Of a DNA stretch of 64,000 bases, positions 25,145 through 25,616 are shown piece by piece. The notes under the pieces were generated by a model. It made no database searches. It was not told where the DNA came from and was given only the letters and a program-made list of their open reading frames with translations. Each line of letters opens with the position of its first letter. Position 1 is the first letter of the stretch. Source of the DNA: an uncultured Chitinophaga sp. (lineage in GTDB: Bacteria > Bacteroidota > Bacteroidia > Cytophagales > Cyclobacteriaceae). Position numbers and translations under genes: made by a program. The stretch is from positions 62,001 to 126,000 of the forward strand of contig CABHOK010000014.1 in assembly GCA_902168205.1 (NCBI GenBank), given 5' to 3'.

Positions 25145-25175
25145 TTGGAAACAACTTTCGCAGACTCTACGTTTG
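25145..25175 (+). promoter_or_regulatory. Promoter of the met operon
   Basis: TTG at 25145-25147 and TACGTTTG at 25168-25175 fit the Bacteroidetes -33 TTG and -7 TAnnTTTG elements with a 20-bp spacing. Transcription would begin about 25182, shortly before the riboswitch. Confidence 0.65.
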
Positions 25176-25208
25176 TGGTATCAAAGTCGAATAAGCACTC
25201 TTGCTTGA

Positions 25209-25333
25209 TCGATTTATAAAGAAGCGCGGAGAGACAGGCTCTAAGAAGCGCTAGCAACCACTCCCGATAATAAGGAAAAGGTGCTAAATCCTGACTCCGG
25301 TTTGGATGGTCCATGCCGGGAAATATAAACCGA
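25209..25333 (+). promoter_or_regulatory. SAM-I (S-box) riboswitch upstream of the met operon
   Basis: The conserved segments are all present: GGAGAGACAGGCTCT (25228-25242), GAAGCGCTAGCAACC (25245-25259) and AAGGTGCTAAATCCTG (25278-25293). Helices seen: P1 TTTATA/TATAAA (25213-25218 with 25324-25329, extendable past one mismatch to TCG/CGA), P2 AGCGC/GCGCT plus AGAG/CTCT, P3 ACC/GGT with TCC/GGA, P4 TCCGG/CCGGG with inner GGA/TCC. The P2 loop CAGG (25235-25238) is complementary to CCTG (25290-25293), the S-box pseudoknot. It binds S-adenosylmethionine in known members. P1 borders the start codon of the leader ORF at 25333 instead of a terminator, which points to control of translation. Confidence 0.9.
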
Positions 25334-25473
25334 TGAAAATGAAAAGCATCATTAACACCATCATTTCCGGGTCAGGCTTGCATAGCCTCCGTGCTTATCT
25401 TTCCGAAATTATTCATGCTATTAACAACTGCATGTGCAACGCATGTTGTTGTTGCGCGTACTGTTGCTGCTAA
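25333..25473 (+). CDS. 46-residue Cys-rich leader peptide of the met operon
   Basis: ATG 25333 (a second in-frame ATG is at 25339) to TAA 25471. The product begins MKMKSIINTIISGSG and ends NCMCNACCCCAYCCC: nine of the last 14 residues are Cys, encoded by a mix of TGT and TGC. Such runs just before a biosynthesis operon are typical of regulatory leader peptides, where ribosome speed at the codons reports the charging of the tRNA. The start lies against the SAM riboswitch P1 helix. The last Cys codons pair with CAGCAACAG just after the stop. It could instead be a metal-binding or modified peptide, but the position favours a leader. I do not recognise a described family. Confidence 0.75.
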   Translation: MKMKSIINTIISGSGLHSLRAYLSEIIHAINNCMCNACCCCAYCCC

Positions 25474-25550
25474 TCTATAGCGCACCGCTTTCAGCAACAG
25501 ACGAGTCTCACGATCTGCCATACGTGACAGGCATGATTACGGCTACGTAT
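25461..25550 (+). promoter_or_regulatory. Candidate attenuator structures after the Cys codons
   Basis: CTGTTGCTG, made of the last Cys codons (25461-25469), is perfectly complementary to CAGCAACAG (25492-25500). Further on, TCACG/CGTGA (25508-25512 with 25523-25527) and ATACGT/ACGTAT (25520-25525 with 25545-25550) share bases and exclude each other. No GC-rich stem with a T run was found, so a classic terminator is absent. Confidence 0.45.
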
Positions 25551-25616
25551 ACTTCTCTATAGCAAAAATCCTCTTTCAGAAATTTTAGTCATTCACCCGA
25601 ATAAAAAAATATAGTT

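Follow-up and report, generated by a model that had tools for sequence, protein, structure and literature searches.

A SAM-I riboswitch joined to a cysteine-run leader ORF ahead of metY and other sulfur genes in Bacteroidota

Riboswitches and leader peptides tend to be presented as alternatives to each other, and attenuation mechanisms in Bacteroidota are, to our knowledge, little studied. The polycysteine ORFs of mycobacteria are reportedly leaderless, to go by a 2020 title of Canestrari and colleagues. The published systems closest to the locus described here are summarized from the parts of the papers that were available. Polycysteine leader ORFs precede cys genes in actinobacteria, where no conserved terminator was found (PMC1262725). 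In Rhodobacterales, uORFC-8-2 lies before cysS and is predicted to act by ribosome-mediated attenuation (PMC8632094). B12 riboswitches with translated uORFs are described for metE and ppe2 of M. tuberculosis (Kipkorir et al. 2024, PMC11260477). Some SAM-I riboswitches carry the RBS in P1 and control initiation directly (PMC2258182), and the SAM-II riboswitch of S. meliloti metA acts at a distance (PMC9373788). Transcriptome papers on F. psychrophilum (PMC9723704) and B. thetaiotaomicron (PMC7366714) mention leader-peptide attenuation in the phylum, and the available text of neither mentions a riboswitch combined with such a leader.

We analyzed a 64-kb stretch of DNA (the window), in which a single Rfam match exceeds its threshold: a SAM-I riboswitch aptamer (RF00162) at 25211-25331, with 69.1 bits (E 4.7e-14) against a gathering score of 44.4 bits. 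This and all other features of the locus lie on the forward strand. The score, well above the cut-off, upholds the aptamer that an earlier note on this DNA had read by eye. The letters of its pseudoknot, CAGG in the P2 loop and CCTG in J3-4, are both found by reading the sequence, and their pairing is predicted. A permissive Rfam scan of 25130-25640 gave six extra matches, all far under their own gathering scores. Upstream of the aptamer, TTG at 25145-25147 may be the -33 box of a Bacteroidota-type promoter. The promoter claimed in the same note agrees with TACGTTTG at 25168-25175, which fits the Bacteroidota -7 box TAnnTTTG; this motif is enriched upstream of the aptamer in Cys-leader loci (80/107, compared with a shuffled mean of 6.1), and a sigma-70 promoter scan was without excess. 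The -7 consensus is also printed in the available part of PMC9723704. With the transcript start that we infer here, about 155 nt, riboswitch included, separate the -7 box from the ORF start at 25333. Between promoter and aptamer lies a small hairpin, AAGC..GCTT (25193-25206), and several relatives show a possible hairpin with other letters in the same gap.

One base 3' of the aptamer begins a leader ORF of 46 codons (25333-25473), in a slot that is conserved in metY loci. Its peptide, MKMKSIINTIISGSGLHSLRAYLSEIIHAINNCMCNACCCCAYCCC, has no Pfam or NCBIfam match; nine of its last 14 codons (25429-25470) encode Cys and one encodes Met, confirming the short Cys-ending frame reported earlier, and both residues are enriched in relatives. 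A second in-frame ATG is found at 25306, within the aptamer. The leader stop is followed, after a spacer of 143 nt, by metY, encoding O-acetylhomoserine sulfhydrylase (25617-26939; TIGR01326, 673 bits, over the cut-off), by a metX-like gene for homoserine O-acetyltransferase (27036-28082; TIGR01392, 344.5 bits, under the cut-off of 500) and by hom, encoding homoserine dehydrogenase (28079-29308; NF004976, 332 bits, over the cut-off). MetX models are the best matches of the second gene, yet remain below their cut-offs; with this reservation, family models agree with the homocysteine-synthesis genes that had been placed behind the ORF. Elsewhere in the window, two adjacent and similar ORFs (30076-31149 and 31067-32281), which have CVAVRNMSSC in common near the N-terminus, are likely a tandem duplication, and a long ORF on the reverse strand (32835-34367) is Cys-rich at its N-terminus (MGCSCGSVKDKNGKTAGC...) and ends in a repetitive tail rich in Gln and Asn.

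The window genome has four listed RF00162 matches, three with a Cys-run leader 3' of the aptamer. One such leader, MKHTKNFSVRNSMYAQAINMNYCMNNCCC (L003), stands ahead of a PhyH-domain gene and another, MKTKEMFIHREDSYRLHKNFSSPTFIGYSCCCCC (L001), ahead of a gene without a Pfam match; the fourth RF00162 match precedes metH and is without a Cys-run leader. Scanning one genome each of 84,980 species for an aptamer GGTGC core joined to a terminal Cys run and a stop, we found at least 119 stretches with this arrangement. In 103 of them a script located a start codon in the slot, in frame with a peptide that ends CCC (L138, which has no aptamer, is included); the start codon is mostly ATG, in few cases GTG or TTG. 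Inspected by eye, the other 16 comprise three more frames that open with ATG and end in Cys (L052, L126, L150), seven of Hymenobacteraceae type, for which the start would have to be GTG or another codon, and two (L042, L086) whose run is followed by TGG; the last four are no aptamers. An RF00162 match is present at 104/109 of the pattern loci checked (31/36 and 73/73), a check that left out L137, L139, L140 and L143-L149; L036, L043, L115, L138 and L151, which have no such match, were dropped as aptamer loci. The RF00162-positive loci are labelled as Bacteroidota lineages except L038 ('bacterium'), and the carriers include Mucilaginibacter, Pontibacter, Hymenobacter, Rufibacter, Marivirga, Chryseolinea, Fulvivirga, Olivibacter, Emticicia, Saprospiraceae and Cyclobacteriaceae. 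An aptamer followed by a Cys-run leader occurs in many soil and water Bacteroidota, and the expectation that relatives have a Cys-ending ORF in the same slot with a drifting N-part was borne out in many of them.

At 73/110 Cys-leader loci, duplicates included, the gene directly 3' of the leader is metY. The unit also recurs ahead of further sulfur genes, a point that the earlier note overlooked. By family scan, the other targets are cysH (L095), a NIR_SIR-domain reductase (L077), OsmC (L094), an LLM monooxygenase (L093) and an amino-acid permease (L105); an NhaC-like transporter behind the leader of L097 is under its cut-off. Sequence reading alone adds metX (L046, L075, L113, L129), a second cysH (L092), OsmC with metY behind it (L094, L130), ferredoxin ahead of a metZ-like gene, and genes resembling TonB receptors.

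Several of these neighborhoods have features of their own. At L003 and L065, SAM-I with a Cys-run leader lies ahead of a PhyH-domain gene, and the next gene at L065 is ATP-grasp-like, by eye resembling the ATP-grasp genes behind other Cys-run leaders. The leaders of L093, L119, L134, L135 and L141 are followed by ATP-grasp and LLM-type monooxygenase genes (by family scan at L093 only), a set that is possibly an organosulfur operon. In Pontibacter L090 only a few hundred bases separate one SAM-I aptamer on the reverse strand (3405-3508) from another on the forward strand (3797-3897). Likewise, Pontibacter L111 carries an opposite-strand pair (5540-5645, reverse; 5914-6012, forward), and in both cases the arrangement is one of divergent operons, each under SAM-I.

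We examined the specificity of the leader in a sample chosen without regard to it. This sample consisted of 124 RF00162 loci from own-genome, family-wide and class-wide searches, namely the family search's best 30, the class matches over the cut-off and 17 family loci picked by assembly, with two RF00162 matches under the cut-off left out. Loci L004, L195, L211, L218 and L225 were lost for want of an anchor, leaving 119, with metY as the next gene in 25 and another gene in 94. At 24/25 metY loci versus 11/94 others, a frame of 15-70 codons starts in the slot (p 1e-15, ignoring relatedness), and at least three Cys are found in the last 15 residues at 14/25 versus 2/94 (p 7e-10, likewise ignoring relatedness); both Cys-positive non-metY loci are the window genome's own. 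In this unselected sample the leader slot is specific to metY loci. Eleven of the 25 metY loci score fewer than three Cys in the last 15 residues. Among them L176 and L215 are script misses and L163 has two Cys by reading, and eight are truly Cys-poor (L016, L018, L019, L028, L233, L235, L237 and L243; 0-2 Cys, slot kept). In the MetY tree a single clade of nine (support 100/98) unites seven of these eight with the Cys-bearing L239 and L241; Cys-poor L019 falls elsewhere. Since the ORF slot is kept there without a Cys run, Cys sensing would be dispensable at these eight loci. The expectation in the earlier note that relatives keep the Cys codons is thus borne out only in part.

Leaders range from 28 to about 55 codons; their N-part drifts among relatives, Cys and Met gather at the end, and the Cys run abuts the stop. 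Across 103 leaders, in which the pattern forces the three terminal Cys, positions -4 to -7 are Cys in 71, 50, 50 and 40% of cases. Met, previously overlooked, is the other strongly enriched residue beside Cys. In the nine positions before the last three, it accounts for 87/630 residues of metY leaders (n=70) versus 20/1808 in their N-part, and for 25/324 versus 13/784 in non-metY leaders (n=36). Trp is also raised near the leader end, with counts of 2 and 4 only. Both TGT and TGC occur at each of the last 12 positions (the codon tally left out duplicates L032 and L014, as well as L138 and identical peptides). Because both Cys codons are used and Met is enriched, we read this as selection on the leader end for Cys and Met decoding, not for letters alone. 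The leader body has 25.5% C and 13.3% G, compared with 21.9% and 22.0% in whole loci; for this C-rich, G-poor composition, no more than 37% of loci come within the top 5% of local windows. In the 12 loci read, the leader start lies 1-12 nt 3' of P1, a spacing also overlooked in the earlier note, and the start site is therefore the likely target of the SAM switch.

Folding places three conserved hairpins in the window, at the end of the leader and in the spacer. Hairpin HA lies within the Cys codons (25434-25457; helix 1 of the covariation table), HB (25461-25500; helix 2) pairs CUGUUGCUG of the last Cys codons (25461-25469) with CAGCAACAG (25492-25500), and HC (25501-25548; helices 3-5) has GUGACA (25524-25529) in its loop. 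A covariance model of all three, R1, spans 25433-25560 and was built on seven sequences, the window's included; it gives the window copy, a member of its training set, 122.6 bits. R1 matches 65/390 family genomes, once each, in 8 of 84 genera. When the 65 matches were realigned, 21/29 pairs had changes on both sides. In this alignment, which was fitted to the structure, cells with both-side changes number 167 against a shuffled mean of 43, with 0/500 shuffles as high, and sliding the partners drops the covariation score from 0.356 to 0.04-0.09. Helix 2, that is HB, has changes on both sides in 5/8 pairs. Single-sequence folding of the window element was not significant (z -1.31, 20/200 shuffles as good), and no Rfam match above chance was found for HA-HB-HC in the window. 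At the 65 R1 loci, 53 in-slot leaders have at least three Cys and one has two (by reading); at the remaining 11 the script found none or used the wrong anchor. In L249 and L252, from the window's genus, a small length difference puts the last Cys codons out of frame, whereas HB retains its RNA letters; its pairing thus seems to be constrained apart from the peptide.

In Mucilaginibacter-like loci (n=30; from named species and from MAGs that resemble them) the spacer is strongly structured over its first 75 nt, with a mean folding z of -2.86, versus -0.94 in other metY loci and -1.17 in non-metY loci (L032, L014 and L138 left out). A hairpin with compensatory changes, H1, follows the stop by about 5-10 nt in 28/30 of them by script and in L127 by reading, its pairs being tabulated from single folds. 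RNAalifold on MAFFT alignments of these loci returned no structure, because the arms are misaligned. The Cys run complements the 5' arm of H1 (mean z -1.9; 18/30 below -1.5), and this pairing, which competes with H1, is seen only in the Mucilaginibacter-like loci. Over the 110 Cys-leader loci together, the Cys run against the next 100 nt has a mean z of -0.44 versus -0.36 in a control stretch, with 7 loci below -2 versus 11 in the control; the signal emerges only on restriction by clade.

How the leader would act on metY was considered from the same loci. Terminator-like hairpins with a U tail are present at 40/79 aptamers before metH, metZ, metX or hom versus 5/24 before metY, a modest difference (p 0.011, ignoring relatedness) against 0-1 per group in shuffles; among the pattern loci, those of metY have 13/68, and shuffles gave 2 in each pattern set. 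Left out of the count were the phyH locus, ten loci whose gene is unnamed, loci with short 5' UTRs, pattern-set duplicates and one metY locus with its gene start 631 nt away. A loose scan was fooled by T-rich Cys codons and was replaced by a stricter one, which is still partly fooled in this way. As U-tailed terminators are rarer at metY than at other SAM-I aptamers, it seems that at metY loci the leader takes the terminator's place as expression platform. The window is without a U-run after HB or HC, and a U-tailed terminator of the classical kind is an unlikely gate. A candidate gate, suggestive only, is masking of the metY start by the HC loop. The loop reads NNGUGACR in 59/65 R1 loci, and its UGACR can pair with UGUCA across the metY start codon; the possible partner in the window is AUGUCA at 25617-25622. 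This start is present at 40/48 loci with the HC loop (three metY starts, in L268, L300 and L301, corrected by eye) versus 24/64 without it (p 1e-6, ignoring relatedness), and TCA makes up 27% of TCN codons within metY genes of the loci that have the loop. The other candidate is Rho, which would act on leader RNA that is C-rich, G-poor and untranslated. The RNA structure is conserved; that it gates metY is what we infer.

The unit probably couples sulfur genes to the SAM end product and to the supply of cysteine, perhaps also of methionine. Our preferred reading, with a probability of about 0.6, is a two-stage RNA switch in which SAM controls translation of the leader and stalling at Cys or Met codons sets the structure downstream. 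In the first stage, suggested by the geometry, the SAM-bound aptamer would stabilize P1, and since the 3' strand of P1 ends 1-12 nt before the start codon, the leader would be poorly translated at high SAM. In the second, suggested by the codons and the conserved structure, the ribosome would read the leader at low SAM and, when charged tRNA-Cys (probably also tRNA-Met) is short, would stall in the terminal Cys/Met run. The stalled ribosome would then block pairing of the Cys codons with the sequence after the stop (HB, or the H1 arm in Mucilaginibacter-like loci), altering the fold ahead of metY. On the simplest reading, full expression of the operon would require low SAM together with a shortage of Cys or Met. 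This agrees with the logic of the pathway, in which SAM stands for the end product, and Cys and Met for the supply of sulfur amino acids. The double reading of SAM and cysteine that the earlier note proposed is favored by the aptamer, the Cys run and the covarying structure; the Cys-poor metY loci count against it, and its gate remains conjectural. Less likely, in our view, is the more elaborate version, a three-input integrator in which SAM-I acts on the leader start, Cys-tRNA and Met-tRNA are both read, the conserved hairpin loop masks the metY start, and the whole is an inherited unit reused across Bacteroidota sulfur genes.

Other explanations account for part of these observations. The leader may be a translation relay only, its translation controlled by SAM and helping metY through coupling, opening of structure or shielding from Rho, with the Cys run serving mainly for HB pairing. 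The ORF slot kept at metY loci without Cys, the HB letters retained out of frame in L249 and L252, the covariation of helix 2 and the C-rich, G-poor leader body all fit such a relay, but the Mucilaginibacter-like loci have the same Cys run with another post-leader structure, TGT and TGC alternate, and Met codons, which are other RNA letters, are enriched too; we regard it as rather unlikely. The terminator counts bear on classical transcription attenuation, in which a ribosome stalled at Cys codons would shift the fold ahead of metY from an intrinsic terminator to an antiterminator. The strong U-tailed hairpins are instead those of the metH, metZ, metX and hom aptamers, the window is without a U-run after HC, and many terminator matches are weak or take T-rich Cys codons as their tail. 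The alternative pairings of the Cys run and the terminator-like score of some metY loci (5/24 and 13/68) keep this mechanism in consideration, at a low probability. Hardest to reconcile with the leaders is a functional small Cys-rich protein, with metal or thiol chemistry, that merely happens to be the first operon gene after the aptamer: an open frame with conserved Cys and the lack of a family match are compatible with such a protein, but the N-part drifts, the Cys run abuts the stop, leaders differ in length (28 to about 55 codons) and Cys is scarce or absent in some of them, and we consider it very improbable.

If the riboswitch controls the leader, as the two-stage switch supposes for SAM and leader translation, the two would form a natural two-input (perhaps three-input) circuit within one 5' UTR, with testable logic for SAM, Cys and Met. 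The unit also marks members of the sulfur regulon (metY, cysH, a sulfite-reductase-like gene, metX and monooxygenase operons) in genomes whose annotation may lack small ORFs of this kind.

Among the open-licence papers listed in literature searches, none combines a SAM riboswitch with a Cys leader; on that scope we call the combination new, and its parts are of known kinds. With nine Cys in its last 14 codons, the window ORF has the trait of leader-peptide attenuators, a short ORF rich in codons for an amino acid of the pathway. The mycobacterial ORFs are leaderless according to the 2020 title, whereas about 155 nt and a riboswitch precede the start of the window ORF. Judged by the available parts of the papers, actinobacterial polycysteine leaders share with it a short ORF, a Cys run near the stop and sulfur genes next (PMC1262725); the SAM-I aptamer ahead, the enrichment of Met, the occurrence in Bacteroidota and the conserved hairpins that follow set it apart. 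Like uORFC-8-2, it has the Cys codons of a short ORF within a hairpin (PMC8632094). The available text on uORFC-8-2 describes two tandem Cys codons, a U-tailed terminator and cysS as target, and mentions no riboswitch (PMC8632094), whereas the window has nine Cys, metY as target and no U-run after HB or HC. The M. tuberculosis B12 cases likewise pair a riboswitch with translation of a short upstream ORF, but their ligand is B12, and amino-acid sensing by uORF codons is not named in the available part (PMC11260477). In S. meliloti metA, too, a SAM riboswitch has an AUG right after the aptamer and an effect on a later start; there the riboswitch is of the SAM-II class, the AUGs are in one frame and an intrinsic terminator is present, with cysteine unmentioned in the available text (PMC9373788). 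SAM-I riboswitches with P1 close to a start site are known as well (PMC2258182, available part), but in those the start site belongs to the regulated gene, whereas in the window it belongs to the leader ORF.
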